Assembly: GCA_019915015.1 (NCBI GenBank)
Contig: JAHBBC010000051.1
Span: 1-64,000 of the forward strand
From: Auriscalpium vulgare
Lineage: Eukaryota > Basidiomycota > Agaricomycetes > Russulales > Auriscalpiaceae
Direction of reading: 5' to 3'
DNA length: 64,000 nucleotides
A model generated the notes under the pieces. The model was not told the DNA's origin. It was given only the letters and a program-made list of their open reading frames with translations, and did not search any database. Positions 1,927 to 23,429 of this stretch are shown here, piece after piece. A program made the position numbers and the translations under genes. Positions within the stretch are counted from its first letter, which is position 1, and each line of letters opens with the position of its first letter.

Positions 1927-4118
1927 ATGTCCCCCCTCATCGAGGCGGTGAGTCACGCTACCATCGCCTCGGCCGCGAACCCTACGGAGCCCGACGTACA
2001 CCATGTGTCGGCTCTCGTTCGCACCATCCAGGCGGCCGACTCTGTCGATGCCGTCTGCGCCCTAGTCCCCCCGGATTATGCGGCTGCCCTCCGTGCTCCT
2101 TTAGTGGAGATCGCCGCACACGCTACCAAGCGTTGCCGCGCGCGGGACACTTTGAACAAGTGGACGGCACACAAGACTGCGGGCACTCTCCCGCAGCACT
2201 TGCGCGGCAAACCCCCTCACATCCAGATGACAAAGGGGTTTGCGGAAAAAGACACCGCCGCGACTCATCGCAGCGGTCTGGACGCGGCTCACGCCAAGTA
2301 CCAGCTCGAGGCCCTAGAGGCCAGCCTTCGCGCTAAGAAGGACGAGGTCGCTTTCCTCGACGACGCGCTCACCCGGAGAAGCTCTACGCCGAGCTTATGC
2401 CGGTCGTGGTTGAGGTGGGCAACCGCCTCTACCAGACCCGGAAGCTGCCGAAGCTGGTTGACGGCCCCGAGGGCTCCCTCGTGGTCGACGGCTGGCTCAG
2501 CAACGAACCCGTCCGGGCGATATGTCAAGCTTTGCAGCGCGACATTGTCCTGTATGCGTACCGCATCATCTCCATCGTGGAGGAGCGGGACGCTGCTGTC
2601 AAGTCCAAGGCCACCCGCAAGGCGGCTTTGGACTCGGATGTTGACGTGACCATGGCCGACGCTACCGGCCCGTCCACCAAGTCGATCCAAGCGATCGTGG
2701 ACAAGGCAGTTGGTCGCGCAATCCAAAAGACCGGCAAGAAGCCGGCGTCCAAGAAGGTGAGTTCATCTGCTCACACTGCCCCTTCGTATGACGCCATCTC
2801 TAACTTCTTCTGGTCAGAAACCGCAGCCCAACGCCAAGGCGTCGGGCTCGAAGGGGAAGGACCCGCGGGACTACGTCCCGCCTCCCACTCGCAAGCGTCC
2901 GCGCGCGACTGGCAAGTCCACCATCCCCCCACAGAAGCGGGTCAACGCCGCCCTCCGCAAGGAGAAGGCGAAGGCCAAGGGCAAGGGAAAGTCGACCAGT
3001 ACGTACCTGGCCGCCCTTGGACTATACCGGACTGGCTGCTAACAGTCCCTCACACACAGGCAATTGAGATTTTGTTCGCGCAGTTATCTCCTAGCTACAT
3101 AGATGCGAATAAATTTAAATCATACGTTCATCTCTCTACTGGTGTGACGCTTCCTAAGGAATATGCGTATCAATTAAGTGTTGGTATGCGTTTTATGTCC
3201 TATCGTTCGCAGAACGCCAACCTCATACGCGAAGCGTGGAAGGACTTTGAACGCCGCATGCGATGGCGTTTATTCTTTGCGTTCTCTGGCGAACAATCAA
3301 TATATGATCCTGATTACGAGGTGAAACCCGCTCCTGGTAAACCCAAGAAGACACCACCCGTACTACCGCTATACCTCGAACGTGGTCTCCGCGAAGGTCG
3401 TCGCTTCGTTTATAATACGATCGACAATATACCTCCGGAGCAGACGAAGGAGACTCGCCAATTTCTCGGCCCTTCGCTCACAGCCACCGAGGCCTATCTG
3501 CGCGACCATGACTACGTTGTCACGGGCACAGATAAGAATTTAGGAATTGCGGTGTCAGAGAAAACCTGGATCATCGAAAAATGCGAAGACATCTTACGCG
3601 TAGACGCAGATTATGAGTCTATCACCGCGTTCGAATGCACAGCTATTCTTCGCCGGAAACAAATTGAGATTGAAGCTATCGCAGAGTTAGCTGAGAATTC
3701 AATCTACTTTGAAGGCAACGTCAGCGAATTTTTGCGGTCTAAAATAGTAGACAACGCTGATGTGTTAGAAACCGTTCCGCGTTTCTACGGGATACCCAAA
3801 ATACATAAGGTGCCAACTAAAATGCGGCCCATTATACCATGTCACTCGGCAGTGATGAATCCTTGCGCTAAATTTGTTTCTAAGAAACTTAAACCGCTCA
3901 TCTTAGCGGCGCCAACAATCCTACATGGAACCAAAGACTTGGCGATAAAATTAAGTCAACTCAGTCTCGATGCGAAACGTCGCTGGTACATTGTTACCGG
4001 CGACGTCGTTGCATACTATCCCAACGTCCCGATCGAATCGTGTCTTGCAGTTGTCTATCAACTGTATTGCGACCTCGTATTTGGAAATATGACGGAGGAG
4101 ACAAAACCCAACGACCGC
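1927..4118 (+). pseudogene. Penelope-like reverse transcriptase, 5' part (interrupted)
   Basis: The gene probably starts at ATG 1927. The N-terminal region (to about 2998) is not recognised and ends in a Lys/Ala-rich stretch. A 61-bp intron (2757-2817, GTGAGT..CAG with CTAAC) is clear; a second (about 2999-3059) has good splice sites, but the reading phase does not close. A one-base frame change also occurs near 2360-2380. From 3060 the frame is a Penelope-type reverse transcriptase: a conserved block with DKNLGIAV, then RFYGIPKIHK and RPIIPCHSAVMNP (template-binding region), and the first catalytic Asp in GDVVAYYPNVPI. The frame is cut after codon 4116-4118 by the LTR retrotransposon. The other half lies at 18646-19899. 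Introns inside the gene are a known trait of Penelope elements. Confidence 0.85.
4115..4118. other. Target-site duplication, left (CCGC)
   Basis: CCGC precedes the left LTR and is repeated at 18642-18645 after the right LTR. Removing the element and one copy of this 4-bp duplication rejoins the reverse-transcriptase frame exactly, which proves the insertion boundaries. Confidence 0.85.
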
Positions 4119-4973
4119 TGATGAGATGAACCCTGGGGGAGGCCCCGGGAACGTCGATAGAAATGGAGGGAGCGAGCAGCCAACCGCTGGCCCAAGAGGT
4201 AGTGGGTCGGAGGAAGAAACCCAAGATCGCGACCGTGCCCCGAACAAACCACCCAGGACCCCGCGGGTCCTGCCCTCGTCCTGCGGCCCTCTCTCTCTCT
4301 CTCTCTCTCTCCGCTCCCGTCCGACCGTCGCACGTTGCGTCTCTTCCCACACTATTCGGTGCGACCCTCCCGTCTGTCGCCGCCGGTCCGTCCTAGTTGC
4401 GGAGTCGCCCTTGCCGTCCGACCGTCCGACCTGTGTCCCCGCGCTTGTACCGTCCGAGTCGCTATCCTGGAATATAAACGTCAGTCATAAAACCTACCAC
4501 ACTGTATCACTCCAGTCTGTGGTTGAGTCGGGGCAGCGTAGCCCGTGGTATCGCAAAGGTGGCGCGACCCGGATGTCGCTACGGCTTCCTGGTTTAAGGC
4601 ATCGTGTCGGCCCAGTGGTCTGGCTGTGTCGCGTCGTGCGATGCTCTCTGTGAAGCAGGAATGAAAGGTGTAGTCTCGGGTGTAGGCCCAAGGTCCAAAA
4701 GTGTCCCTACAACAAGTCGAATCGCGTCTATATACCGCTGCTTCGTCAGCCCTTCCCACGCGTCTGCGCTCCTACGCGTCCTACCAAGTTCCGCGCCCGA
4801 CCGTTCCGACTCCCTACCTCGGCTCTCCGTCTCCTCCCCAGACGCTCGCTCGCTTTGTGCTGTCCCGTGGTCGTGCCGGTGCCGCGACGCCTGTGGGGCG
4901 TCTCGGGGGTGTGTGTCTTGGTGTAGCGGTGTGATGGTCCGTTTCGGTGCCTGTAGCGCTGCGGGTCCCATCA
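4119..4973 (-). repeat. 3' LTR of the gypsy element
   Basis: Direct repeat of 17787-18641, both 855 bp, with TG..CA ends. It contains a CT microsatellite near 4285-4310. The differences seen between the two LTRs are chiefly single-base gains or losses (for example near 4187, 4345, 4547 and 4934). Open frames inside it are not conserved proteins. Confidence 0.9.
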
Positions 4974-5011
4974 TCCTCCCCCCAACTGAGCTACCGACTG
5001 CCCTCAGTCGG
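4974..5011 (-). promoter_or_regulatory. Polypurine tract plus hairpin module 1, at the 3' LTR
   Basis: On the sense (minus) strand the order is a 7-bp perfect stem with an AGGG loop (5011-4994), a 4-nt spacer, TCAGTT, then GGGGGGAGGA directly against the LTR. That location is where the plus-strand primer of LTR elements sits, so the purine run is very likely the functional polypurine tract. The same module recurs at 6634-6672 and 10842-10875. Confidence 0.8.
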
Positions 5012-5123
5012 CGAATCCCCGGATGGCTCCTCCTGATAAAGGCTCCCTCGCGCCGTCTCGATGAGTCGTCAGGTAGCGTCGCACCGCCCGCCCGACCAAC
5101 CAACCCCCCCCCTACACACCATC

Positions 5124-6346
5124 ATGACCTGGTCTCCGCACACGTACCGTCGCGGTACTCTCTTGCTATACCACCTGGGTCGGGCCCCCAGCGCGGACTT
5201 CCCGCTCGCAGCAGCCGCCGAAGCGATCGAATCGCGCGAGCGTTGGGCACAGGAGGTGTTGGCTGTCATCGTACGGTTCCCCTCTTTTCCGCCCCGTTGT
5301 CGCGCTAACCGTCCGCTCCCATCGGCTGTAGGAATCCATCACCGATTCCGACCCCAGGCTGATCATCCCCCTCGCCGAGCGCATCCTCATGCCGATACTC
5401 GAGAAGCGATCCTCGTACCCGAGGTCGAGGATCGCTTCCGCTCGTGGGCGGGGCGCTTTCTTCGTCCCGCCCCGCTCCCTACGACCGAGCTGCACCCGTG
5501 GACCTCCGTTGTTGATCGGGTCGACCTACTTGACGCCCCCAAGGTTCGGCTGACCGCGACGCTGGTTGAGGAGAACTTTTGGGTCGTGTTTCGCAAACGC
5601 GGGTGCTCGGTCGCGTCGTACTTGCGCGAGCTCGCCATTTTCCATGCCGCCATCCCCGATGACCGTCCCCTGGGCAACCAGACGTGGGTCGCGTACGTCC
5701 TCCGAGAGGCCTTGGAATGTTCCGCGCTCTCCATTCGCCACTCGCGTGGTGGGACCGCTTTCCTTCCCGACTACGTCGCCCGCGAGTCGACCGCTTGGCC
5801 CATTTCGCCCCCACGCAGTACGGTCGCAACCTCGGCGGACTGGGTGCGCGTCTTTTAGCTCGTTTCGAGGCCGTGTACCGCGAGACCGTCGAGGAGCTCG
5901 CTGGGGCTACGGAGAACGTCGCCAATCTGCAAGCCCTTTGGGCCGACGCTCCCTACCTGTTAGCCATCGTTCGCGACCCCTGCCTCTCCCTCGAGCACGC
6001 AACCCGACTCTTCCTGGAGTACGCAGTGACTGCGGCATACGTTCTACGCCATTTCCCAGCCGCCCCGACCGAGCCCGACCTTTACACGAACAACCTCTTG
6101 GTGACCTTTGTGCGCCATCGTGTATTGTCGGGGCTCCCCGCCTTGCCCGCCGGTGAGGGTGTCGGCTTGGTTGACGACGATGCCGGCGGTGTCGATTCCG
6201 ACGAGCAGATGCAGGGCGATCCCGTGGACGCCGGGGGTGTCGGGGATAATGTCGCTGTGATGGAGCGTGTGGTGGTCGGCGATGTCGGCGCGATAGTGGA
6301 TTACCGCAGCGATAGTGATAGCGACATCGCGAGCAGTCGCGAGTAG
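5124..6346 (+). pseudogene. Antisense cargo gene alpha (paralogue of beta), frame-disrupted
   Basis: Exon 1 (5124-5270) has 49 codons and ends at a GTACGG donor; a 61-bp intron (5271-5331) has CTAAC and ends in TAG. The sequence then continues as a protein clearly related to gene beta, but in three successive frames, with shifts near 5400-5440 and about 5790. The last frame runs to the stop at 6346 and ends in an Asp/Ser-rich tail. Shared blocks with beta include the region around EELAGATENVANLQ and the exon-1 region ending in an acidic/Trp motif (ERWAQEV versus EEWGRKV). No known domain was recognised. It lies on the strand opposite to gag-pol, so its intron survives retrotransposition. It may be a pseudogene, or intact with assembly errors. 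Confidence 0.55.
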
Positions 6347-6630
6347 TGTACCCCTTCTGTAAATGGTCTCTCCGGCCGCCATGAATCGCACAGAACTGTG
6401 GCCCCTGATGTCTCATAGCAATGATCGTCGCGTTTCGCTGCGTGGGCGACTCATAGCGTCGCGCGGTCTCCGACCGTGTTCTGATGGATCGCGGATTCGG
6501 TTGCGCGTGGTCGGCTCTGACTTTGTCTTGTCCCGCTCCCTTCTGGCTACTTGTTCCTCGTGCACCCTGCGCAGGCTGGTCACCCGTCGCCGAGAAAATC
6601 CCTATCTTTCTCCTCGTCGCTCGTGACTGG
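6347..6630. other. Spacer between cargo genes alpha and beta
   Basis: I see no gene here. The stretch separates the alpha stop codon from hairpin/polypurine module 2. Confidence 0.4.
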
Positions 6631-6633
6631 CCA

Positions 6634-6672
6634 TCCTCCCCCCAACTGAAATCTGCGCCTGTCCTCAGACGC
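6634..6672 (-). promoter_or_regulatory. Polypurine tract plus hairpin module 2, internal
   Basis: This is the same architecture as module 1: sense-strand stem GCGTCTG/CAGGCGC with an AGGA loop, a 5-nt spacer, TCAGTT, then GGGGGGAGGA. One stem pair is G-U, which pairs only when read as the element's sense RNA; on the other strand it would be an A-C mismatch. Stem bases differ from module 1 while pairing is kept. It lies about 100 bp upstream of gene beta, so an antisense promoter role cannot be excluded. Confidence 0.7.
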
Positions 6673-6768
6673 GAATTCTCCGGCCAAACCCCGGCATATC
6701 GGGTCGCGGCGGGTTTCCGACGGCCTACATAACGAGTGCGGTCGGTGCGTGCGACCCAGCCTCCGACC

Positions 6769-7948
6769 ATGTCGTCCAGTTTCACCCTTGAGGCGCGTGC
6801 TTTCGCCCTTGTCGGGCTACTCCTCACTCCGCCCGCGATTGACCTGGAGACCGCTCCCGTCGAGACCCTGGTTCTGGCTCGGGAGGAGTGGGGTCGCAAG
6901 GTTGCTACGCTCTACGTAAGTCCTCGCGCTGTCGTTGCGATCCCCGCTCACGTCCGTGTCGCGCTTATCCAGAATGAAGTGTATAACACTGCGAAGCCAT
7001 CCGTCCTTCGTCTTGTCCAGGCAATTGTCAGCCCCGTCTTCGAGACGCTGTTCACTGTGTCCCCCGAGTCGCGCGCCGCGTTTGCTGAATGGGGTGGTAA
7101 CCTCATCAGCGACCTCGCGCCTCCGACGTCCGCTCCTCTCGACCCGACATTTTCGGTTCGCCCGATCGCTGGATTCACCTTCCCGAACAATCGCGACCAC
7201 TCTCGCCAGCTCTCGCGCCTCTGCGAGGGCGCCCTGTGGGCCGCATTTGAGTCGGGCCGCACGTCCGTTCCCCAGTACCGTCGCAGCCTTGGTGAGCTCT
7301 GCTTGGCCGCTCATCCCACCGGTCGCGGAGCGGGCATCGACGCGACAGTCCACGCGGAGTTCATTGCCGCATGAATGCTTGCGCTTCGGCTCTTCAGCGC
7401 CTGAACGGCGGGGAAGAGGCCCTCCTGTCCGAGGTCCATCGCCTCTCCTACTCGACCACCGGCATATCCCTCCCGACCTCCTGCGTACCCTCGCGCACCC
7501 TCTGTCCGATACGCTCATTACCCACACCACCGAGACCGTGGCGACCTTGGCGTCGATCTACGGCACCATCGCGCAACTTGCGCGACCCGACGACCGCCGC
7601 GCGCGTGGTCGCTGGGGTCCGTATGCCGACGCCTTTGACTCTGCGGATGGGTTCTTGGAGGCCGCCGCTGCCGCGTATCTGCGCGACGCCTTGCAGTGGT
7701 CCACCACTATCGACAGTCTTCATGCGCGCACCGCCATTGAGAGCGCTATCCTCGCGTCGAACCTCCCCACCGAGTTGTTGGCCGACGTCCACAGCGACCC
7801 GACGATGTTCTTGGACGAGGTCGTGACGTTCCGCGCAGTCCCGATGGGTTGGCAAAACGCGCACCGTGGTCGTCGAGGCGGGGGTGCGACTCGGGGGCGC
7901 CTCACTCAGCAGGGGCGTATCCCGCGTGACGATCCTGCCACGCTGTAG
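6769..7948 (+). pseudogene. Antisense cargo gene beta, frame-disrupted
   Basis: ATG 6769 starts a 49-codon exon ending in ATLY; a 57-bp intron follows (6916-6972, GTAAGT..CAG). Exon 1 has the same length and intron phase as gene alpha. Exon 2 stays open to a TGA at 7374, but alignment with alpha shows that the protein continues after one missing base near 7370 and another shift near 7455, then runs to the stop at 7948. The predicted protein would be about 370 residues, helical and rich in Ala/Leu, with no domain I recognise. Together, alpha and beta look like a tandem duplication of a unit consisting of the hairpin/polypurine module plus a gene. Confidence 0.55.
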
Positions 7949-8437
7949 CGTCGTCGCACTGTCGGAGCGTCGGGAGATAAAGGGAAAGAAAGAGCCCGCG
8001 TTAGTGTAGTGCCTTGTGCCCGCATGTACGTCGTTGAATGCCTCCCAATACGAGTATTGAACTTGCGACGCGTTACCCGCTTGTGCGACGCCAGTGTACC
8101 GTGGTCGCGCCCCGTGAGAGGGGCGGGCGCCAACGATTTGTGCGATTTCGCTCGCGCCAGCAACACGTGCCCGCCACGCGGCGTCGGAGCCGCGCGCGGC
8201 GTCCCGCACCGGTCCGGGGCATGTCGCGGGATCAAATCAACGATCGCTGATCAGATCGCGGATCGACCCGGCGTCGTGGGCGCTCGGAGGCAAAACCAGC
8301 GCTCTGGCCGGGCCACGCGGCCGGTCGCTCCCACGCACGCGCCATTGTTCGTGCGCCTGTGGCGAAGTCGCCGTCGCCCTTCTTCCCTCCTTCCCCTCTC
8401 ACTCGCTCCCTCCCTCGACACCCCGATTCCTTTCCCC
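7949..8437. other. Spacer upstream of cargo gene gamma
   Basis: No gene seen. Around 8220-8265 there is a cluster of GATC sites (CGATCGCTGATCAGATCGCG), and 8360-8430 is pyrimidine-rich, as is common just upstream of fungal start codons; it is a reasonable place for the gamma promoter. No clear TATA box was found. Confidence 0.4.
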
Positions 8438-10569
8438 ATGGACGCCGCATCCGCCGCCGACACCGCTGCCACCCGCGCGCTGCTGGACGCCCAGCACGCC
8501 TTGCTGGCGGGCATGGCTCGCGACGCCACCGCCGAGCCTCAGCTCGCTCTGTTGCGGCCCCAAGTCCGCCAGTTCATGGTGCGCCCGCTCTCACAGTCCT
8601 TGCCGACCCCGCTAACCCTTTGTTGTCTGTCGCCGCTCAGCGCACCTACCACGACGCTCGTGATCGCGGCGTTACGTTCTCGGCCGCGGCGCGGGCGCGC
8701 TTCTACGCCCTCGAGGAGGCCGTCCGTCCGCCGCACCAGGCCCTCGACGACGAGGAGGAGGACGAGGACGCCGTCGACGCCCCCGCGTCCGCCCCGCCGC
8801 CTACCCGACCCGCCGCTACTCTGCCGCCCGCTGTCGTCGCTGGAGGGGACGTCGAGGCGGAGACTCGCCCAGTTCGTACCGGTCGCCCCAAGGTGCGTCA
8901 GCTTCCCATCTTGTCTGTATCGCCGCTAACACGCCCCCGGCTGCGCTCACAGGCTCGCCGCGTGCCCGCCAACCGTGTCGAGGTTGTGCTGCCGCGCGCT
9001 GTACCCCCTGCGTCCCCTCGTTCTGCTCGGGGTGAGCGCCACGCTGCGCGCACCGATGTGTCGACCGCTTCGGTGTCTGCCAAGGTCGCGGGGAAGCGCC
9101 GCGCGTCGCGCTCGCCCGCGCCTACATCGTCTCCCCGTTCGCCGCCTCGCCCCCGCTCCGCCCGTGGTCGCCCCACCAAAAGGGGCCGTCTGACCCCCGC
9201 CTCCGTCGCGCCCGCCCTCTCCCGCCGTAGCTCCTCGTCGCCGTCGCCTCCTGTCGGCCTCGACGACTCGCTGTCGGAGGCGGTCGACGAGGACGGTGAC
9301 GCGATGTTCCACAAGTCGGACCGCCGCCCCACGAACACTGAGCGCTACGCCGGCGAGCGCCTCAAGGTCAGTCGCGCCATCCTTCCGCTGTACCCGCTCT
9401 GGCTCACGCCCCTCGTTTCGCAGACTGCCACCCGGTGCACCCGCTGTGCCACGAACTTCAAGCAAGGGCCCAAGCGGTGCGAGTTCAAGCCGCACCGACC
9501 CTCGAAGTGCATCCGCTGCCGCGCGCAGCGAAAATCCTGCTCCGGCGCCGTGCTCGCGGACGGTACGCGACCGCTCGCTCCCCCTCCCCGCTCCAACCGC
9601 GGGCGTTCTGGCCGCTCGCGGGCTGCTTCTCGTGCCCCGCGGTCTCGCTCTGCACCTCGTGCCGCCGCGATGTCGTCCACCGCCCGCCTGCTGGAGGACC
9701 TGCTCGCGTCCGCCGACTCCATGGGTGGGTGCTCCCCCGTCTCTCGCCGGTCCCCTTTCTGACGACTCTGGTCCCCTTTCACAGATCCCCCGCGCTGCGC
9801 CCGCGAGCTCCTGGCCGAGGTCTTGTCGTCTGTGGACGCGGATGTCGGTCGGTTCGAGTCGCTCCCGGCTGCCGACCGCTTCCCCGAGGGCGCCGAGTCC
9901 ATCGCCCTCGTCCAGGCGGAGCTCGATGCCAGTCGGACCGTCCTCCTCACCTGGCCGCACCGCCACGACCGCCTCCTCCTTCGCTGGGCGCAGTTGACTC
10001 ATCGGTACGGGGCGCGGGACACGTCCGAGGTCCCCGGCTCCGACGCCGCTCCCTCTCCCTCGCCGCCTGGTTCCCCCATCGCCGGGCCTAGCGCTGCCCA
10101 CGCTCCCGACTCGCCGGCCATTGCCACCATCCCGCCGAGTTCCGTCGCCGCCTCGACGCCGGGCGATCCCGCCGACTCCGACGAGGACGAAGACGAGCTC
10201 GCCGTCCCCGACCAGCCGCCGAGTCCCGACGAGGAGGAGGACGACCACGCTTCGGGTCGTGCCAGGCCGGCTCCCGTCGCGGGTTCGTCGGACGGTGCTG
10301 CCGATGCGGAGGATGAGGAGGAAGAAGAAGACGCGGGCGTCGCTGTGGCCGAGGGCGGGGAAGTCGCGACGGACGAGGAGGAAGAAGAAGACGCGGGCGT
10401 CGCTGTGGCCGAGGGCGGGGAAGTCGCGACGGACGAGGAGGAAGAAGAAGACGCGGGCGTCGCTGTGGCCGAGGGCGGGGAAGTCGCGACGGACGAGGAG
10501 AGCAGCGAGGCGGCTGCTGAGGAGGGTGCTGCCTCCGCGGAGGCCGTCGCCATGGACGTCGACGAGTAG
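8438..10569 (+). CDS. Antisense cargo gene gamma: zinc-cluster protein with acidic repeats
   Basis: Five exons give an unbroken frame of 630 aa: 8438-8578, 8641-8892, 8953-9366, 9424-9724 and 9785-10569. All four introns are 57-62 bp with GT..AG ends, and the first two have clear CTAAC branch sites. The N-terminal half is Ala/Pro/Arg-rich. A cysteine cluster with spacing C-x2-C-x10-C-x9-C-x2-C-x6-C begins at CTRC and ends at RKSC; it resembles the paired-cysteine, Zn-cluster-like motif common in mushroom hypothetical proteins. The C-terminal third is strongly acidic and contains three exact 20-residue repeats. A nuclear DNA- or RNA-binding role is inference. It is the only intact cargo gene, encoded opposite to gag-pol, and converges on pol with about 320 bp between stops. 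Confidence 0.75.
10321..10500 (+). repeat. Three identical 60-bp tandem repeats in gene gamma
   Basis: Three perfect copies of a 60-bp unit are in frame and encode an acidic 20-residue repeat beginning EEEEDAGVAV. Perfect identity suggests a very recent expansion or homogenisation. Confidence 0.9.
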
Positions 10570-10841
10570 TGTAAGTTTTCCCGACCTTCCCTGTCCTTTT
10601 CCCCTTCTATAGTTGTACGATACCCGGCCGCTCGACGTGTTTTCTTTTCCCTTTTCTTGTGTAGCGTACCTCTGCTACCTTTCTTGATTCTCGTGTGCTG
10701 CCCACCTGCATGTGCTCGTAACAATAGAATTTTAGTGCTCCCCCACCACAAAGGAGGAAGAAAAATAAGTTAAATCAGTAGGGTCAATGTACTGTCCGTG
10801 GTGTATCTCCTTAGCGTGCCTCCTAGTCTCGTCTCGTTGCA

Positions 10842-10875
10842 TCCTCCCCCCGACTGAGACTGCTGACCCCAGCAG
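10842..10875 (-). promoter_or_regulatory. Polypurine tract plus hairpin module 3, after pol
   Basis: On the sense strand, shortly after the pol stop codon, comes a 6-bp stem CTGCTG/CAGCAG with a GGGT loop, a 2-nt spacer, TCAGTC and GGGGGGAGGA. It is homologous to modules 1 and 2, with a different stem sequence but the same fold. In a simple gypsy element this is the spot where the 3' LTR would begin, so the 5.9 kb of cargo may have been added beyond an ancestral 3' end. Confidence 0.7.
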
Positions 10876-10889
10876 CGGTACAGGGCCTG

Positions 10890-13800
10890 TCAGGTGACAC
10901 TGCCGTCTTCTGCGCTGTTGCTCGCGGTGTCCGACGCGTCGCTGTCGATGCTGCGTGATTCCTGTGCTTGGGCGTCGACGTCAGGCTGCCCGAGGAGTTC
11001 GTTTAGTCGCCTGGCGGGTATGTCAATGAACTCCGGCAGCGGAGGTAGCGTGATGTGCGGTCGCGCGAAGTACGGAATGACGCGAAACTCCGCTGTGGGC
11101 CTGTCAAAGACCGCCCCGTGCATGTCGCACAGGACGTACGGTCCGCCGCGTCGCCGTCCGATTACGATGAACGGACCGTCGTAACGGGGCAGCATCTTGC
11201 GGTCGAGCGATTTCTCGAACTGCGTGAAGCGCACCAGGACGAGGTCCCCTCGTTGGAAGCCGTAATTCTTGATCGACACTTCGTGGTCGCGCTCGAAAAT
11301 TAGAGCATCGTGCCGCCGCTTGTCGAACACCTTCGAGTGGAGTGTGCGGAGCTGGGTGCGGCGCTTCTGTAGTGCGACAGCGCGTCGCGCGATTAAATCC
11401 GTGGTCGACAGTATTGAGTCGGGCGGTGGTAGGAGGTACGTCGCTTCGACGATATCGAGGGGCATCAACGCCTGCGTGCCGGTCGCCGCGAAGTAGGGGG
11501 AGCAGCCCATACGCCTGCGCGTCGTGATCCTGTCCGCCCAGAATACCGAGTGTGCGACCGCGGCCCACTTGCTCGCGTCACCGTCGGCGGCTTTGTACAA
11601 GGCCTGTCGGACGTCGAAATGTGATCGCTCTACGATTCCGTTGGATCTCGAGTTATAACCGGAGATGCGGATGTGGTGCACGCCGTAATCTTCTTCGAGA
11701 TGCTTCATCGCTGCCAGGTACGGCGTTCCGTTATCCGTTACAATTTCCCGGAGCGCTCCCCAGCGACAGAGTACGTCCTCGAATATCCATCGTGCGAGCG
11801 ACTTCGCGTTTTCCTGTCGCAGCATACGCCATTCTGGGAAGTGCGAGACCGAGCACCTTCCTTGTACGATGTATTTAAAGCCCCGTGAAGCCGGCATGTG
11901 CATGGTATCAGCGTACATCTTGGCAAACAGCGGCGCCGGCGTCGCGACCGTTGGGGGGATCAGCACGTGCTTCACCTGCCGCACCTGGCAGATGTGGCAC
12001 GATCGCACAAACCACGCGACGTCGCGGTCCATGTAGGGCCACCAAAAGCGTTCGAGGAGAAACATCTTCGTCGGGTACGCGCCGCGATGGCCGACGTCGT
12101 CGTGGCACGCCTTCAGGGCTCCTATGCGGCGTTCCGGGGGCAGTACGAGTTGGTGTCGCCCCTGGGGCTCCTTGCGAAAGAGACTCGTGCCGTCGAGGAA
12201 GAACTCGGTGCAGTACCGCAGGAACGTCGCATACTCTTGGTCGGCTAGGCCTTCCGGCCGCTGGAGCGTGTTGTGCCATTCCCGTACTCGCACGATTCGT
12301 TCGTCGGCTTGCTGCGCCTTGATGTCGCGGTCGACGGCGTCGTAAGACAACTCTGTCGGGGCGGCCTGGGTAACGAACGTCGCGATCGCGGCCCTTGGGT
12401 GGTCGCGCGGATCCCCCGACCGTGGCCTTGTACTGCGCGGTACGTATGCGTTTACGAGGTGAATAAATCCATACATGGCGTCGACCCAGTCCTCGAACCC
12501 GTCGTGCTCGTTTTCTGGTACGTCGCCCGGTTGGCGCCTTCGTCGTGACATCCCGTCAGGTCCATGAAATAGGCCGGGCACGTGAACGAGGACGAAATGG
12601 AACATGAGAATGGCAATAATCCACCGATTCATGCTGGCTGAGGGTTCAATATCGGGGTTGTCGAGCATGCCCTTAATGTAGCGTGCGTCGACTTCCACGA
12701 CCATGTTCCGCACTCCGATTAGATATATCTTCAGCGCGCGGAGCGCCCGAAACAGGCCGTATAATTCTAACTTTGGTTGCGAAAAACGCGCCTCGCGATC
12801 GTTCAACGCGATGGACCCAAACCGTGCGTACCGACGCTTCTTGCGACTCTTCGGATCGTCGGCGTCAGCCTGGCACAGCAAGAACCCGACCGCAATAGGA
12901 GACGTATCGACCGCGAGGATAACCGGTTCGCCCGACTGATAGTCGATCGGTTTCAGAGCTGGCGACTCCAGCAACGCGCTTTTGAGATCTTCCATAGCTG
13001 CTAACTGTTCCGCTCCGAATTCGAACGGCACATCTTTCCTTGTAAGGTGCGTGAGCGCATGCGCGCGATGTGCGAAATGGTGGATGAAGATCCTCAGCAC
13101 CCCGACCGTCCCGAGGAACGCCCGTACATCAGACAGGTCTTGACATGGCCCCCAATTCACAATCTTAGCCACCCGTTGTTCGTCGGGGATCCGCCCGTCC
13201 CTCGTGCAGCGGTGTCCGACCACGACAATTTCGGGCGCGCACAAAATAGTCTTCCAACCCGAAAACGTCCCGCCCGAATAACCCATGCGCTGTACGACGC
13301 GGTTGAGATTCTGAAAGTGTTCCCAGACAAATCGGCGGATGCCCTCGTTGTCAGCGATTGTCTCGTACCTCCCCTGGTCGTCCTTGTATTCGCTCGCGGG
13401 GCCCTTGACCGGTACGTCATCAATAAACGGTATCGTGACGTGGGGAATTTCCGGCCTCAGGATATGTGTGACGTCGTCGTGGAAGATAGGCACTGAATTC
13501 GTCCAGCCCATCGGTAGTGTTACCAACCGCAGCGCGCCGTAAGGAGTCTGGAACGTAGTGAGGTCGCGCGACGCTGGGTCCAACGCTCGCTCGTCGTATC
13601 CGACATACAGATCCAGCATCGCGCCGCAAGCCCGACCCGCGAATTGCTCGGCCAGTTGGTCGGTAAACGGGGGCACACCGGAATGAGCTATCGTGACGGC
13701 GTTTAACGGCTCCAGGCTGTGCACTATGCGCAGGCTCGTTCCATCCTTTTTGACCACGCAGAACCACCGCGACCTATACGACGAATTGGATGGTTCGTAG

Positions 13801-14549
13801 ACGTTCGCGGCCAACTTCCGACTGATTTGTTCCATGACTTGGTCGTAGATTCCCGGCGGGATCGGTATGTTGCGTTGTACCCATGGCGTGTGCGGTACGA
13901 CGGGTATCGTGACCGGCGGAAAGAAATCTTCGCGGAAGTGGCCTCGCTCGCTGTCGTCCCACGCGAACGCACCGTTGTGCTCGCACATAAAATGGTGCAT
14001 CAGCTTGCGTTCCTCCTTCCACAAGAAGTCCCCCTCGTGAACTACGTCGAATTGGTCGCGGCGCTCCTCGGTGTAACGCCCCGTCGGACGGAAGTCGGGG
14101 GGCTTCGTCGGTAACTTGGGTAGTGTCGCTAGCGGGTCGCCTCGTATGTCGCGTATGATTCTGAACTGCCCAGGCAAGTCGGCTAGTACTGGCTTCACTT
14201 TTAGGTGGGCGGGCTTATACTTTTTCTTGGTCGCTGCGAAAACCGCGCGTGCCCGCGCGCTGCTAGGCAACGACTTACAGTCGCGAAATTCCTGTTCGCC
14301 CGCGAACGAGGGCACCCCGGCTGGGGCGAGAAAGAAGACGGGCGCCGACGGAGCGTCCAAAGTCGCGTCTGTCGGCCGATTAAATATGGGAGGGGTAGAT
14401 TCTGGGAGATCGCAAAATGATAGATAGGTTGCTCGTAACTCTTCCGGCGAACTAGAGGAGTCGAAGGGGACCACGGCTTCCACGGAAATAGGATCGGCGG
14501 CGTCGCCCGTGAACTCGAGGACGAGCGCCACTTCCGCCTGGTCGTCCAA
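10890..14549 (-). CDS. pol: Gypsy pol: reverse transcriptase, RNase H, integrase
   Basis: Open for about 1,219 codons. The reverse-transcriptase region (roughly residues 230-430) includes RWFCVVKKDG and the catalytic box IPFIDDVPVKG, with Phe in place of the usual Tyr before IDD. RNase H follows with Asp in ILAVDTS, Glu in KLELYG and Asp in VEVDARY. Integrase has an HHCC zinc site (CHDDVGH, then CHIC) and a D,D,E core: ADTMHMP, VTDNGTPY, NGIVERSH. The C-terminal end has a short basic/beta region with YDGPF but no chromodomain. The frame is -1 relative to the protease frame, and the first codon is not an ATG, so expression by frameshift from gag-PR is likely. Confidence 0.9.
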   Translation of the reverse strand: MDDQAEVALVLEFTGDAADPISVEAVVPFDSSSSPEELRATYLSFCDLPESTPPIFNRPTDATLDAPSAPVFFLAPAGVPSFAGEQEFRDCKSLPSSARARAVFAATKKKYKPAHLKVKPVLADLPGQFRIIRDIRGDPLATLPKLPTKPPDFRPTGRYTEERRDQFDVVHEGDFLWKEERKLMHHFMCEHNGAFAWDDSERGHFREDFFPPVTIPVVPHTPWVQRNIPIPPGIYDQVMEQISRKLAANVYEPSNSSYRSRWFCVVKKDGTSLRIVHSLEPLNAVTIAHSGVPPFTDQLAEQFAGRACGAMLDLYVGYDERALDPASRDLTTFQTPYGALRLVTLPMGWTNSVPIFHDDVTHILRPEIPHVTIPFIDDVPVKGPASEYKDDQGRYETIADNEGIRRFVWEHFQNLNRVVQRMGYSGGTFSGWKTILCAPEIVVVGHRCTRDGRIPDEQRVAKIVNWGPCQDLSDVRAFLGTVGVLRIFIHHFAHRAHALTHLTRKDVPFEFGAEQLAAMEDLKSALLESPALKPIDYQSGEPVILAVDTSPIAVGFLLCQADADDPKSRKKRRYARFGSIALNDREARFSQPKLELYGLFRALRALKIYLIGVRNMVVEVDARYIKGMLDNPDIEPSASMNRWIIAILMFHFVLVHVPGLFHGPDGMSRRRRQPGDVPENEHDGFEDWVDAMYGFIHLVNAYVPRSTRPRSGDPRDHPRAAIATFVTQAAPTELSYDAVDRDIKAQQADERIVRVREWHNTLQRPEGLADQEYATFLRYCTEFFLDGTSLFRKEPQGRHQLVLPPERRIGALKACHDDVGHRGAYPTKMFLLERFWWPYMDRDVAWFVRSCHICQVRQVKHVLIPPTVATPAPLFAKMYADTMHMPASRGFKYIVQGRCSVSHFPEWRMLRQENAKSLARWIFEDVLCRWGALREIVTDNGTPYLAAMKHLEEDYGVHHIRISGYNSRSNGIVERSHFDVRQALYKAADGDASKWAAVAHSVFWADRITTRRRMGCSPYFAATGTQALMPLDIVEATYLLPPPDSILSTTDLIARRAVALQKRRTQLRTLHSKVFDKRRHDALIFERDHEVSIKNYGFQRGDLVLVRFTQFEKSLDRKMLPRYDGPFIVIGRRRGGPYVLCDMHGAVFDRPTAEFRVIPYFARPHITLPPLPEFIDIPARRLNELLGQPDVDAQAQESRSIDSDASDTASNSAEDGSVT

Positions 14550-14557
14550 CGACGCCT

Positions 14558-16240
14558 CTAGAGCCGAAAATCCCTGCGCTCGCCGGCGCTCTGAACGATG
14601 CGACGCGAGCCTCGCTCTACTGTCGGGACGGTCGCCGTCGCTTGAGTGTTGGGATCGGTGATCGTGATGGTCTGTCGCTCATCTTCAAAGTTGCGGACTA
14701 TACTCCCAGTGAGGACGTCGAAGGGCCTCCCTAGCAGGATGTCGTAGGCCGGAGAACGTATGACGTGTATCTGCACGTAGAGCGTAATGTCGCCTAGCTT
14801 TAGCGCTACGTTGCGGGCTAGCCCGAGGGATTTGTCAATCGAGCCGTTGGCGGAAAGCATGTCCAGTGTGATCGCGGGATCGTATGCTAGGCCGAGAAAA
14901 TGGCAAACGTCCTCGGACATGGAGATGACCTGCGACCCTGGGTCCAGGATGGCCTCAATGTGCGCTTGGTTATCCACCAAGGGCAGGACCGCTCGCAATG
15001 CCGATGACTCCTTTGCGACCACCAGCGGGGCCGGTTTCTCGGCCGAGGCACTCATCAACGTCAGCATCGGGTCGGAGAGCACTAGCGACCCGCGAGGCGG
15101 CACCGCTGGCTGGCTCTGTATGGCCTGCAAGAACGACGACGGCATGTGCGAGGTGTATCCCCGCGCTCGATCTCTCTCCTGCTCGCGCTCTTCCTCGTAC
15201 AAGTCGCCTGGTAAGTCCGACCACTCCTTGGTAGGCTCTTCGCCTTCCGCTACGGCCGTGTGCAGGACCGCTACTGGGGAGTCCCCGCTGGACAATACCG
15301 GGGCCGCTATGCGTCGCGGGGTGATAGCGTATCGCAACTGGGAGCGTACTTCTGGCGCCAGCGACAGTAACTCGCTCTGCGTCAGAGTGACGGAAGTCCC
15401 CATCGCGCGGCCGTAGACTTCCTTCGCGACTTCTTCACTATGGATGGGCGTGTCCTTGGTATAGGCGGCGACTGGCTTCTTCCCTTTGTCTGGTCGGGAC
15501 GCGTCCCCGACGGGTATGTAGGTTGCGTCGGGTACGGAGGCAAACGGATGGATGGGTTCCGGCTCTATCTCGTTGGGGTCCTTCTCGACTGTCGGTTCGC
15601 CCTCGCTCGCTTCCCTCGCTTCTTCCGCATCCTCTGGATCTTCGGGCACCGCGAACGTAACCTTCGACCGTTTTGCCGTGAATTTCGACGGGGATATCAC
15701 CACCTCAGGGACTAGCTTCCTGGATCGCACTCTCTCCCCGGGCAGCGGACCGATTGGTGGCGGTAACTCTCCGTTGCGAATCGCAGCCTCCCTTCGGACC
15801 CGGCCGGCGTTCCTCTGCTCCTTCATGAGTGTTAGCACCGCCATCTCTTGACGCAACTCCTCTAGTCGCTCGTCGTCCGTCAATGGCGGGATTAACTGGA
15901 TGAGCCCGGCGACGGGCTGGTCGCGCGCAGGTCGGAGTGGGTAGTCGGTGACAGCGATGGGGCCTGTCGATGCCAACATCATTGTTTCCGTCGCGTTTCC
16001 CGCGACTCTGGCCGCGACGTCGGCGCGCAGCCCGGACGGGTCCGTGCGATAATATTCGTCTACCCTCGCTTGAATCGGGCCTAGCCCAAATGGCACTGGC
16101 CTGCCGCTCTTGAGTACCACCTGGTTCATCTCGTTGCGTACCACCCGCCCCGTCGCTATGTAGTCTTGCAGGACGAGGCATTCGCGGATGAAGTGCTCGG
16201 GGCCGTTGCAGAACGAGCACCTGGCGCCATCCTGTCCCGG
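14558..16240 (-). CDS. Gypsy zinc knuckle and aspartic protease
   Basis: This frame starts with a CCHC zinc knuckle (C-x2-C-x4-H-x4-C, CSFCNGPEHFIREC) near 16215-16175. A long Pro/Glu-rich linker follows, then a retropepsin-like domain with ILDPGSQVISMS, in which the active site reads DPGS rather than the common DSG/DTG, and a later ILLGRPF that matches the ILG motif of retroviral-type proteases. The upstream gag frame differs by one base; the change falls around 16260-16340. It is therefore either a second frameshift site or a broken gag. The stop at 14558 overlaps the start of the pol frame. Confidence 0.8.
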   Translation of the reverse strand, partial: PGQDGARCSFCNGPEHFIRECLVLQDYIATGRVVRNEMNQVVLKSGRPVPFGLGPIQARVDEYYRTDPSGLRADVAARVAGNATETMMLASTGPIAVTDYPLRPARDQPVAGLIQLIPPLTDDERLEELRQEMAVLTLMKEQRNAGRVRREAAIRNGELPPPIGPLPGERVRSRKLVPEVVISPSKFTAKRSKVTFAVPEDPEDAEEAREASEGEPTVEKDPNEIEPEPIHPFASVPDATYIPVGDASRPDKGKKPVAAYTKDTPIHSEEVAKEVYGRAMGTSVTLTQSELLSLAPEVRSQLRYAITPRRIAAPVLSSGDSPVAVLHTAVAEGEEPTKEWSDLPGDLYEEEREQERDRARGYTSHMPSSFLQAIQSQPAVPPRGSLVLSDPMLTLMSASAEKPAPLVVAKESSALRAVLPLVDNQAHIEAILDPGSQVISMSEDVCHFLGLAYDPAITLDMLSANGSIDKSLGLARNVALKLGDITLYVQIHVIRSPAYDILLGRPFDVLTGSIVRNFEDERQTITITDPNTQATATVPTVERGSRRIVQSAGERRDFRL

Positions 16241-17235
16241 GCCGGGCGAGGACGATCGAAACGAGCGGCCGACGCCATCATCGGGCCCGGTGGCCCGCGC
16301 GTGTACGCCGACGGCTGCGGGCCTGCGTTACTCATCCCCATCGCATCGGCTCTCCCCGCGCTATACGCTTTCGCGATCTGCTCGGCCGCCTTCTCCATCA
16401 GAGCGGCAAACTGCTCGACCTTGATCGCAGGTTCTTCCGCCTTGACGGCCACGGGTTGGGACAAGTCGGCCAGACCCGCGGGGACGCTGAGCCCTGCCGA
16501 TCGCGGGGTGCTCGACGTGCCGTGCAGCACGTACCGCGCCGCTTCCACTATTTGGTCCATCGGGTACGGGCCGTCGCGATCGTGGTCGGGATACTTCAGC
16601 TGCAGCCGCTGCTCTATCCTATCTTGCAGTCCCTTCTGAAATCCACGCAAGAAAGTGTAGTCGCGGTCGCGCTCGGAGATACGCTGCCGCCCTATAAGAA
16701 ACTGGGAGATCGCGTAGAAACCGCGATAGTATTCCCCAACGTCGCCGATGGTCGTGATGCCTCGGCGGGCTGTCTCGGCGACGAGCTGATCGAGGTCGCC
16801 CATTGTGTATTTGCGCTCCTCGTCCGCTCCGGGGTATAGCGCTATGATCGCGGTCACGAACTCTTCGAACGTCGCATTGCCCGCGTACTGGGGTCGGCTT
16901 TGCCACTGGTCTGCTGTAAGGACGTCCAGGTATCGCGTGGCGTGCTCCTTCTTCTCCTGGTCCTGGCCGTCCTCGATACCCGCCCGCGTGAACAAGTGCC
17001 TCAACTCCGCGAAATAGCGTTGCAGCTCGCGCGGCTTAAGATTGTCGAACTTAGGGGCTTGGCGGTCGCCACGGGTAGGCATTGGAGTGGCCATGGTCGT
17101 GCGACGGGGTAAACGCGATAACGGAGTACTGGATTGCGATGTGGGAGAAACTGGTCGGGAAACCTGTGCGGCCGCTCCACGCCCGTCTCCTGATAAACCT
17201 CCGTGCGTTCCGACGTTTCCGCGGTCGGAAGCCAA
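16156..17235 (-). CDS. gag: Gypsy gag (capsid region)
   Basis: About 360 codons with a retrotransposon-gag-like core: PKFDNLKPRELQRYFAELRHLF near the start and GDVGEYYRGFYAISQFLIG in the middle, followed by a helix-rich stretch. The zinc knuckle is absent from this frame because it lies one base out of phase. The N-terminal start is uncertain: the open frame begins with a non-ATG codon, and 17236-17737 contains further gag-like, charged coding potential in shifted frames. Confidence 0.75.
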   Translation of the reverse strand: MASDRGNVGTHGGLSGDGRGAAAQVSRPVSPTSQSSTPLSRLPRRTTMATPMPTRGDRQAPKFDNLKPRELQRYFAELRHLFTRAGIEDGQDQEKKEHATRYLDVLTADQWQSRPQYAGNATFEEFVTAIIALYPGADEERKYTMGDLDQLVAETARRGITTIGDVGEYYRGFYAISQFLIGRQRISERDRDYTFLRGFQKGLQDRIEQRLQLKYPDHDRDGPYPMDQIVEAARYVLHGTSSTPRSAGLSVPAGLADLSQPVAVKAEEPAIKVEQFAALMEKAAEQIAKAYSAGRADAMGMSNAGPQPSAYTRGPPGPMMASAARFDRPRPARDRMAPGARSATAPSTSSANASSCKTT

Positions 17236-17737
17236 GCGGTCGCTGTCGAAGGCACCTGTGCCTCGTCTCGGTCCTCATCAATCAGCGCAGCCACTTCGGG
17301 CTCCGATTCCGACGGGGTAAGCTCCGGCGACGACCTTGTCGCATCGCTCCGCCAGTCAGCAACTCGATCGACGCCTCATTGACGTCCAGGAGCTCCTGAT
17401 GGAGGGACCGTCTACCATCCAACCGTGCTCCGACTCTTCCGATTGGACAGGGCCTGCCTCCGCGTTTTGATCGCCGGGAGCGTCGCCCGCAGCATCCCCG
17501 TCGTTCTCGGGTGCTGCGTCCGAACACCCGATGCCTCGCCGTCGTCGTTTTCGTTGTCGCCCTCGGCGCCTTCAGCGCTGGAAGTCGCGCGCGCTCTTCG
17601 TCCGACGCCCCACCTTCCGACGATGCGAGGTGTCCTGGCATGGACTCCGCCCGCTGACTGGTCGAGTACTCCGACGGGGCCGATCGGGGCGGTGCTCGTC
17701 GAGTGGGCTCTACGATAACCCTCGCCTTTGGTGCCAT
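17236..17737 (-). pseudogene. Probable N-terminal gag region, frames shifted
   Basis: An ATG at 17737, about 50 bp inside the 5' LTR, opens a frame that looks like the beginning of gag, but coding character moves between frames (acidic DNENDDGE-like and basic stretches) before the clear capsid frame at 17235. This is best read as gag N-terminus with one or more 1-bp indels. Confidence 0.4.
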
Positions 17738-17767
17738 CGGGTTGCTGAGCGGTTGACACTAGCCCCC

Positions 17768-17786
17768 TCGCGGTGGGCTCCACAAA
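17768..17786 (-). promoter_or_regulatory. Primer-binding-like site of the gypsy element
   Basis: Read on the minus strand, the sequence after the 5' LTR is TTTG followed by TGGAGCCCACCGCGA. It starts with TGG within a few bases of the LTR, as expected for a tRNA-primed minus-strand start, and resembles the TGGCGCCCACCG-type region found beside LTRs of many gypsy elements. The cognate tRNA was not identified. Confidence 0.6.
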
Positions 17787-18641
17787 TGATGAGATGAACC
17801 CTGGGGGAGGCCCCGGGAACGTCGATAGAAATGGAGGGAGCGAGCAGCCAACCGCTGCCCAAGAGGTAGTGGGTCGGAGGAAGAAACCCAAGATCGCGAC
17901 CGTGCCCCGAACAAACCACCCAGGACCCCGCGGGTCCTGCCCTCGTCCTGCGGCCCTCTCCCTCTCTCTCTCTCTCTCTCCGCTCCCGTCCGACCGTCGC
18001 ACGTTGCGTCTCTTCCACACTATTCGGTGCGACCCTCCCGTCTGTCGCCGCCGGTCCGTCCTAGTTGCGGAGTCGCCCTTGCCGTCCGACCGTCCGACCT
18101 GTGTCCCCGCGCTTGTACCGTCCGAGTCGCTATCCTGGAATATAAACGTCAGTCATAAAACCTACCACACTGTATCACTCCAGTCTGTGGTTGAGTCGGG
18201 GCAGCGTAGCCCGTGTATCGCAAAGGTGGCGCGACCCGGATGTCGCTACGGCTTCCTGGTTTAAGGCATCGTGTCGGCCCAGTGGTCTGGCTGTGTCGCG
18301 TCGTGCGATGCTCTCTGTGAAGCAGGAATGAAAGGTGTAGTCTCGGGTGTAGGCCCAAGGTCCAAAAGTGTCCCTACAACAAGTCGAATCGCGTCTATAT
18401 ACCGCTGCTTCGTCAGCCCTTCCCACGCGTCTGCGCTCCTACGCGTCCTACCAAGTTCCGCGCCCGACCGTTCCGACTCCCTACCTCGGCTCTCCGTCTC
18501 CTCCCCAGACGCTCGCTCGCTTTGTGCTGTCCCGTGGTCGTGCCGGTGCCGCGACGCCTGTGGGGCGTCTCGGGGGTGTGTGTCTTGGTGTAGCGGTGTG
18601 ATTGGTCCGTTTCGGTGCCTGTAGCGCTGCGGGTCCCATCA
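17787..18641 (-). repeat. 5' LTR of the gypsy element
   Basis: 855-bp direct repeat of 4119-4973. In element orientation this is the promoter-bearing LTR. Its right end is followed by the second target-site copy CCGC at 18642-18645. Confidence 0.9.
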
Positions 18642-18645
18642 CCGC

Positions 18646-19899
18646 GAACAACTCGAGGTCTTTCGACGTTCCCTGTACGCAGGAAACACTGAGTTGGTTA
18701 CAGTCTTTCAAGGCAAATATTACAAGCAACGCCGCGGACTCGCTATGGGCGTTGCTGACTCGCCGGACCTCGCTAATTTGTGGGGCTCGTATTGCGAGGA
18801 TAAATATAAAGTCCTTGACCACCCTAGAATCCCTTTCTACGGGAGGTACATCGATGACTGCCTCGCTATCGTATACGCTTCGTCTGAGCGCGAAGCACTC
18901 GATATCGTACAATCAGTTGTTAAAATCGATGGCTGTACAATTGAATGGTCTGCGTCCGATTTAAAGCAAGTCTTCTTAGACATGACGCTGTATCGTGATG
19001 AGTTTAATACACTCCAGCACATGCCCTACCGCAAAGCGCAGAACCATCAAGAAAGAATTCCGTGGACATCACACCATCCTTTAGACGTCAAACGAGGTAC
19101 GTTTATTGGAGAAATGTCCCGGTTAGCCACGCTGTCGAGCACTAGCCGTGCTTATGCAGACGCAATGCGGGGGTTAGTCACCCTCTATAAAGCTCGTGGT
19201 TATCCGGAAGCGTTAGTTGACGCTTGGTTATCATACAATTATAAAGAACGTTGGAACAAACGGATCAGTGTCACCCCTGACCGCAATCCCGGAGGCGTTC
19301 TGGTTTTGAAAACCGAGTACAACACCGCTTGGAATTATTTCAATGCAATGGAGTTTGGAAACACCATCTTAGGATATTGGCGCGAATGGCTCGAAAGAGC
19401 TGATCGCGGCGACTTCAATAGGAAGTATCCGCCGCCCGCAGACGGCGATGCGGACGTCTTGGTCACTGATCTTCGTCTTCGGACGGAGGTTTCGCGGCTA
19501 GGATTCCCTCCCATCGACCTGCCTGACGTGCGGAAGCTCGATATCCTTAATCGTCGAATGATTGTGAGTCGCAAACGCACTCGCAATCTATTTGACATTA
19601 CAAATCTTTGGAAAAAGGTGGTTTTCCAGGAGTTGGACGAGCGCGTATCTGCCGATGTCGCCCAGGAACTGGACGGGCATATGGCCAAGGTTAATCGGAT
19701 ACGCGACCACGCTCTTATCGACGCACCGGCACCCGTAGTCCCTGCCCCTGGTGAAGGGGATTCCTCGGACGAAGATCGGAACATCCATCGTCGACACTCG
19801 CCCCCGGCCCCGGACACTGGGTGTACGGACGGACTTGGTGAGAAGTATCTGTTGGTAGGCCTGTTGGCCTGCTATGGCGGAACGGCTTGTTTACCCTAG
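18646..19899 (+). pseudogene. Penelope-like reverse transcriptase, 3' part
   Basis: This continues in phase from codon 4116-4118. It carries the second catalytic box, FYGRYIDDCLAIVYA, then the Penelope thumb region (DMTLYRDEF, HPLDVKRGTFIGEM) and a C-terminal extension ending in an acidic, Pro-rich tail, with the stop at 19899. There is no GIY-YIG domain after the thumb. About 97-98% of it, from 18939 onward, matches the telomere-proximal fragment 25-927, with both substitutions and 1-bp indels, so the two copies have been separate for some time. Confidence 0.85.
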
Positions 19900-21765: not shown

Positions 21766-23429
21766 TGCCGTGGATATACAGAGGCCTGGAGTGGTCCGCT
21801 CAAAAAAGGCAATTATTGATGCCATCAGTGGCGGGACCCCGGGCACTACAGATGTGTCATGTACCTTCCCAATGCAGAAGTACAGAGTTCCAGCCAAGTT
21901 AATCCCCTTATCGGGTGGTATGGCAGAGTCGCACATGCTCAGTAACTTGGTATTGCTGTTCCAAGCTTTGAATTTGATCCGAGCTTGAGGAGGGAGATGC
22001 ACGTCCGATATCACGTGACCACCTCGGAATTAGACTCTGGTGTTTCAGTGTGGCAATACATTTTCCGTCTTATTCTGAAGGGTTAGGAATACATTGCACC
22101 TCCAGATTTCGGAAGCCTGAGCATACTATGCCTTCCACTCAGTGCTCCCTCCTTGTTTTATTCTACACACCAATTGCCTCCTAACTCCGCGCTAACTCCG
22201 ACGTTGCCTCTGCTGCCCGCGCAGCATGATCCTGTGCACTGCAATAATTGTTTGCCAACACCGGGCTACTACTTGCATATCTCCCCGCACACTTGTGCTA
22301 TCTCATTGCTTTCTGTCATATAAATTCTTCATAAGTCGGAATAGGAGTTAGTAAGCGGCGAGTGCTTTGGCAACCTCGGAGTTGTGCCAGTCCGCACAAG
22401 TATACCATTCTCCCGGCATTTTCAGGTGCATTATATAAAATGGTTCAGATGTATGGTACAATGAGCAGATAGAGAAAATCAAACATACCAGGACGCGGAG
22501 AACAGGTCCGACTCTTAACTCCGAGTCTGAATCCCCAAGAGGGAGGTATTACTTACCATGCTCTCGTTATGCACATTTTCTGCACTGCTCTTGTGATCTA
22601 CAGCCTCTTTGTTCCATGTTTTGTTCTACACAACCAGAATTGCCACAAGCTCTGGTCCGACACTTTGATCCGACTCTGGTCCGACACTTTGATCCGACTC
22701 TGGTCCGACACTTTGATCCGACTCTGGTCCGACTTTGGTCCGACACTCTGGTCCGACCCTTCCGGTCCAACTCCGACTCCAACTCTGCCTCTGCCGCCCG
22801 CAACATAATCATGTTTTGTTCTACACAACCAGAATTGCCACAAGCTCTGGTCAGACACTTTGGTCCGACTCTGGTCCGACTCTGGTCCGACCCTTCCGGT
22901 CCAACACCGACTCCAACTCTGCCTCTGCCGCCCGCAACATAAGTCTGCAAACTCCGTCCATTGTCAGCCCGGATACGTGTCCGCTTCACCTCGCACATGC
23001 TCCATACCATTGTTCTTCTGTCATTTCAATTCTTCAAATGTCGGAATAGGAGTTATGCACTTTGCAATGTTGGATGGTCCGCACAAGTCCACTCTTGAGC
23101 TCCCGATATTGTCGGTTGCATGATACAGGCCGCAATTGTAATTCCGAGTTATGCAGATGGAGAATGAACACACCAAGTGCACTCTACGGAATGAACATTA
23201 AGTCCGACTTTTGGCAATTTGGCCCCACAGGTTGGTCTGCTTCTTTCACCCTCCTTCAACACATTCATCATGTGTATCATTTGTATCCTTTACTATTTAC
23301 TGCCCCGTCAGCTTTGGCTACAAGTGCTCATCACTGGATATTGATCTATCATTATATATTATCTGACTAATACAGGTAGGAGTTCAGGGGGACAGGGTGA
23401 GCCGAGCCTGCCGGGACCTCTCGATCGAA
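21766..23429. other. Insertion inside the Plavaka remnant, no gene seen
   Basis: About 1.66 kb separate the two transposase fragments. I found no protein family. The segment contains the minisatellite at 22650-22945 and AT-rich parts. Ends and target duplication were not resolved. It may be a non-autonomous element. Confidence 0.45.
22611..22945. repeat. Minisatellite, CTCTGGTCCGAC family
   Basis: Three 24-bp units (CTCTGGTCCGACACTTTGATCCGA) and shorter derivatives are nested in a larger duplicated unit that starts with ATGTTTTGTTCTACACAACC at about 22615 and again at about 22811. Open frames on both strands here are repeat artefacts. Confidence 0.8.

Follow-up and report, generated by a model that had tools for sequence, protein, structure and literature searches.

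Genes lying antisense to long terminal repeat (LTR) retrotransposons are already known from plants, and a single one from Botrytis. The plant Retand lineage, Grande, RIRE2 and PvRetro13 have antisense open reading frames (ORFs) between pol and the 3′ LTR; a nuclear location is reported for the Grande protein and DNA binding is predicted for TRP28 (PMC7264820, PMC11963269). Boty-like elements of the fungus Botrytis cinerea are cited as carrying an antisense gene, brtn (PMC7264820, PMC8365987). Here we describe a Ty3/gypsy element of Auriscalpium vulgare, located on the minus strand at 4119–18641 of a 64,000-nucleotide stretch (contig JAHBBC010000051.1 of assembly GCA_019915015.1, positions 1 to 64,000; hereafter the window). 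Between its pol, which ends at 10890, and its 3′ LTR lie three plus-strand genes, alpha, beta and gamma, with six introns in total. With a probability of about 0.78, comparison of their sequences suggests that they form a conserved accessory module of the A. vulgare Ty3/gypsy lineage that serves the element.

The frames of plant Retand elements mostly encode the TRP28 domain, whereas the A. vulgare cargo proteins belong to no convincing Pfam family, and TRP28 (PF04195) was absent from Pfam scans of the spliced cargo proteins. The element differs from the plant elements further in its three genes, six introns, paralogous gene pair and three polypurine tract (PPT) motifs with an adjoining hairpin; the main texts of PMC7264820 and PMC11963269 contain no word starting with "intron". 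Boty, another fungal LTR element, is described as likewise having an additional gene in antisense; going by the title of the cited study (Zhao et al. 2011), it has one such gene, compared with three here. A first-pass annotation, made from the sequence alone, had named no fungal counterpart with several spliced genes. None was found among the papers listed from the open-licence literature, but brtn is a one-gene precedent. The same literature yielded no paper on A. vulgare in combination with retrotransposon and genome, and the main text of a fungal LTR-element survey (PMC3248453) holds no word starting with "antisense". Additional ORF3s in LTR elements of bdelloid rotifers are, by the account in PMC5408684, extra genes after pol that vary by family, as the A. 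vulgare cargo does, yet they have known enzyme or envelope domains whereas the cargo has none. The new features are several spliced genes and a PPT motif whose adjoining hairpin covaries.

The first-pass annotation had placed three plus-strand genes with introns of 57–62 bp in this position, and both points hold. Gamma consists of exons at 8438–8578, 8641–8892, 8953–9366, 9424–9724 and 9785–10569. Removal of its four GT-AG introns (62, 60, 57 and 60 bp) gives the open 630-residue frame that had been predicted, with a six-cysteine motif and an acidic tail. Three 60-bp units at 10306–10500 encode an acidic repeat in gamma, and the length of this stretch varies among copies. Alpha comprises exon 1 (5124–5270), an intron of 61 bp (5271–5331) and exon 2 (5332–6346); similarly, beta comprises exon 1 (6769–6915), an intron of 57 bp (6916–6972) and exon 2 (6973–7948). 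All three genes are therefore present with their introns, but gamma alone is intact in the window, since short indels disrupt the exon 2 frame of alpha at two points and that of beta at two. Three of these four indels occur in none of 19 other aligned copies and the fourth in a single other copy; some of them may be assembly errors.

The cargo accompanies pol at nearly all scored loci of the same genome (G000), within which the searches were made and for which all copy numbers are lower bounds. A pol DNA query (10900–12400), with 40 of 183 candidates scored, gave 42 rows, from which two short fragments on contig C35 were dropped to leave 40 loci; an alpha DNA query (4900–6900), with 40 of 127 candidates scored, gave 40 matches. 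At 39 of the 40 scored pol loci, gamma lies 3′ of pol, in opposite orientation and no more than 20 kb away. Within the same distance alpha is found beside 36, beta beside 35, and all three genes together beside 35. The distances between pol and cargo are near-constant at most loci; alpha is 8.5–17 kb off in C10, C12 and C45, as nested insertions would give. Two pairs of opposed copies with their 3′ ends facing, at C27:200450–206278 and C40:183936–193673, have their alpha matches separated by 1.8 and 5.7 kb, respectively.

As judged by comparison among copies, the antisense frames are under purifying selection. From a first set of 20 loci one (L016), which does not extend beyond the block's first half, was left out, and from a second set of 20 loci 11 were taken in and 9 with partial matches left out. 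Of the 31 copies of this family, hereafter family 1 (window included), 25 have an uninterrupted alpha exon 2 of 339 codons and 26 an uninterrupted beta frame of 393 codons when read without splicing, counts that rest on sequence patterns and may miss some copies. Beta can be read unspliced because the length of its intron is a multiple of three. Spliced gamma measures 592–630 amino acids in four subfamilies, with the splice fit failing for L039 and the stretch from L030 stopping short of its stop codon. Its introns range from 49 to 71 bp (62/64/67/52, 60/49/63/71, 57/56/57/54 and 60/58/56/61 for the four introns across the subfamilies). These lengths differ mostly by numbers that are not multiples of three and the exons still rejoin in frame, so the frame holds only with the introns removed. 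Annotated A. vulgare proteins agree with these models: P0003 joins exons at all four predicted gamma junctions and P0002 at the predicted beta junction. Ratios of nonsynonymous to synonymous change (dN/dS), obtained with a Nei-Gojobori script, are about 0.08 for beta (0.07/0.90, intron excluded), 0.19–0.25 for alpha between two diverged groups, and 0.22–0.34 for gamma in six pairs.

The module also occurs in a second family, whose pol protein is 79% identical to that of the window and in which nine loci match beta at 32% identity. One family-2 locus, read in part (L049, L050), runs LTR end, PPT-hairpin, alpha, PPT-hairpin, beta, gamma, PPT-like motif and, on the opposite strand, pol. Its alpha, beta and gamma encode 387, 370 and 617 amino acids, the last with introns of 54, 53, 60 and 51 bp. 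Order, strand and introns of all three genes are kept, while the cargo proteins are only about 30–36% identical to those of family 1. Set against the 79% for pol, this means that the cargo either evolves far more quickly than pol or was exchanged. A third family comprises 59 reverse transcriptase (RT) loci at 87–90% identity, 39 of which have an antisense frame resembling alpha to their 3′ side (25 of the 39 at 6,959–6,971 bp), and 507 bases of one of its loci contain a PPT-hairpin. RT loci at 82–85% identity constitute one more group of related elements, which is abundant in the genome.

Judged from their sequences, alpha and beta are paralogues from one ancestral gene. Their proteins are 19–22% identical over the alignment, and in the genome search a family-1 beta query hits both family-2 alpha (E ~1e-8) and the alpha of its own family (E ~4e-4). 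An intron, placed by pattern, follows nucleotide 147 in phase 0 in all six alpha and beta sequences tested. An origin of the pair from gag was tried and rejected, as profile comparison with the gag-like frame of the window found nothing (probability 0.1%).

Introns are what host genes would bring along if they had been transduced by the element and carried passively; capture in antisense would preserve them, and the cargo proteins resemble no known retroelement protein. We nevertheless consider transduction improbable. Passive carriage sits poorly with purifying selection among element copies and with a second family having the same gene set, and no intact host-locus copy of the cargo genes is among the matches listed in the genome. 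Protein-database searches returned few relatives (two, two and one), all from A. vulgare and including a protein of 96% identity, although with about 8,000 candidates scored per search the absence of relatives elsewhere is weak evidence. The first-pass annotation had offered both service to the element and transduction. Service to the element is favored because the genes stand beside nearly all scored pol loci, recur in a second family, evolve under purifying selection and have no intact host locus among those matches. It is therefore probable that the antisense genes belong to the element itself and are not stray passengers.

The module is also marked by a repeated signal. The window has three occurrences of the PPT motif CATCCTCCCCCC[AG]ACTGA on the minus strand, compared with 0.16 expected, and in the sense strand the motif is preceded by a hairpin of the form CTG-NGGN-CAG. 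Motif search, stem test and covariation place these PPT-hairpins at the 3′ LTR (4972–5011; motif 4972–4989, hairpin 4994–5011), between alpha and beta (6632–6672; motif 6632–6649, hairpin 6655–6672), and after pol (10840–10876; motif 10840–10857, hairpin 10859–10876). Chance origin of the motifs was rejected on the excess just given and on the 15-base core, which has 166 exact copies in the genome and none when reversed. In 21 of 24 distinct upstream sequences a 4-base loop closes a stem of 6 bp or more, compared with 9% of shuffles; two of the 21 stems differ from the CTG-NGGN-CAG hairpin, that of L044 being unrelated and that of L050 another stem. Among 15 distinct hairpin cores (L044 left out, and the register of L050 set by hand), 93.3% of cells are paired and both sides have changed in four of the seven pairs. 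Covariation reaches 0.491 compared with 0.127 in shuffles, none of 500 being as high, scores that related rows inflate. Five cores have a U-G pair that can form in no strand but the sense one, and this points to the genomic RNA as the setting of the hairpin. In lentiviruses, a central polypurine tract is a second PPT copy inside the element. The A. vulgare element has two internal copies instead, each with a hairpin, and these are candidates either for extra plus-strand priming sites or for sites where module proteins bind.

That hairpins flank the module and also separate alpha from beta allows another explanation, namely that the module is one or more separate mobile units inserted into gypsy elements, with the hairpins marking insertion borders or old element ends. 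Blocks of the module have indeed been exchanged between subfamilies. For instance, L013 and L020 are 99.7–99.9% identical over alpha, spacer and beta and 65–66% in gamma, while L020 and L030 are 99.5–100% identical in gamma and 80.9% in beta; the switch point lies just upstream of gamma, at about 8300. The cargo is, in addition, more diverged than pol. However, 39 of 40 loci pair the module with pol, two families share one gene order, and Pfam scans of the cargo gave no transposase-like domain, all of which makes independent mobility an unlikely account. Template switching between co-packaged RNAs would explain the mosaic. It is least probable of all that the frames are functionless chance products of a GC-rich stretch, for although long open frames are common at a GC content of 61–72% per kilobase, as within 5001–11000, and the ORF list shows many more overlapping frames of over 100 amino acids in the cargo region, chance does not account for low dN/dS, intron lengths that change while the spliced frame holds, or homologues 30–36% identical that share intron positions.

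As parts of an accessory module serving the element, alpha, beta and gamma would be driven by plus-strand promoters of their own. Their antisense placement would keep the introns from being spliced out of the genomic RNA and let them be copied intact, which is why they could survive retrotransposition. The first-pass annotation had argued the same, and its argument fits the retention of introns across copies and in two families. Gamma, with its six cysteines, basic stretches and acidic tail, may be a nuclear nucleic-acid-binding regulator. Its cysteine spacing in family 1 (C-2-C-10-C-9-C-2-C-6-C) differs from the standard spacing of Zn2Cys6 (PF00172), the domain of fungal transcription factors, and no Pfam match was found in five gamma proteins at E 5. 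Alpha and beta may be helical partner proteins; a model of a 225-residue beta homologue is helical, at a mean predicted local distance difference test (pLDDT) of 38.0, and a 595-residue gamma homologue was modeled at 46.8, both low in confidence. The cargo frames of the window have no Pfam match at E 0.1, five alpha and beta proteins gave weak Pfam matches only (best E 0.025), and a PDB sequence search returned a best E of 0.19 for alpha and beta and nothing for gamma.

Jointly, the three proteins could aid expression or replication of the element, as accessory proteins do in complex retroviruses, and could act on the hairpin-PPTs or the LTR. The HBZ gene of human T-cell leukemia virus type 1 (HTLV-1) is an antisense accessory gene of a complex retrovirus (described in PMC11963269). 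Complex retroviruses would thus resemble the A. vulgare element in having extra regulatory proteins, HBZ being antisense, if the role here is regulatory by analogy; the element differs from HTLV-1 in its three separate antisense genes with several introns. To our knowledge, the accessory genes of complex retroviruses have no sequence relation to the cargo. It is conceivable, though we hold it only tentatively, that the three spliced and selected genes and the three hairpin-PPTs make up a retrovirus-like antisense circuit, with the proteins acting on the hairpin-PPTs or the LTR promoter and the gamma block exchanged and fast-diverging, a pattern that conflict with the host or with rival elements would produce.

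Several observations weigh against an accessory module. One of the 40 pol loci is without any cargo match and four more are without beta or alpha or both, and family-2 queries found no beta or gamma match in family 3. Near-identical copy pairs give dN/dS from 0 to 1.04; with very few changes, however, such pairs say little. In single-strand folds the hairpin is best at the middle window site only (z of −2.5, −0.6 and −0.2 at the three sites). The predicted splicing and promoters are drawn from comparison and from annotation of unseen basis, and the functions are guesses since convincing Pfam or PDB matches are absent and the structure models are of low confidence.

The remaining parts of the element are those of a Ty3/gypsy retrotransposon. 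The 3′ LTR (4119–4973) and the 5′ LTR (17787–18641), both 855 bp with TG...CA ends on the minus strand, align with 852 of 858 columns identical, 6 gap columns and no substitution, which points to a young insertion. The differences are gap columns throughout, several of them in single-base or CT runs, and may reflect assembly errors. The paired LTRs are flanked at both ends by CCGC, a duplicated 4-bp target. By Pfam the domains follow the Ty3/gypsy order of protease, RT-RNase H and integrase, all on the minus strand: a 528-residue protease frame (14558–16144; Asp_protease_2) and a 1219-residue pol (10890–14549; RT_RNaseH and Integrase_H2C2). RNase H, the integrase zinc domain and protease score above their cut-offs, and RVT_1 (PF00078) scores 15.4, under its cut-off of 29.6. 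A 359-residue minus-strand frame from the ORF list (16156–17235), without a Pfam match, is called gag-like by position.

The element interrupts a reading frame (2397–4121 plus 18602–19899) that by eye resembles a Penelope-like reverse transcriptase; it gave no Pfam or PDB match. The downstream part of this frame has a second copy at 21–1779, 94–100% identical in pieces. A different LTR-type element, recognized by eye, lies on the plus strand at 43898–51025 with a gag-like frame of 1283 and a pol-like frame of 1090 amino acids, and 22615–22942 holds 24-bp tandem repeats (CTCTGGTCCGACACTTTGATCCGA type) along with a pair of larger copies that are nearly identical.

A fungal LTR element with several selected, spliced accessory genes would parallel the plant Retand elements and the complex retroviruses. 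Since a sense-strand intron would be lost in one round of retrotransposition, the retained introns offer a natural test of antisense sheltering. The role of antisense genes in LTR elements is left open in the main texts of the plant papers (PMC7264820, PMC11963269), and dozens of near-identical copies, together with three related families in one genome, provide a way to test it.

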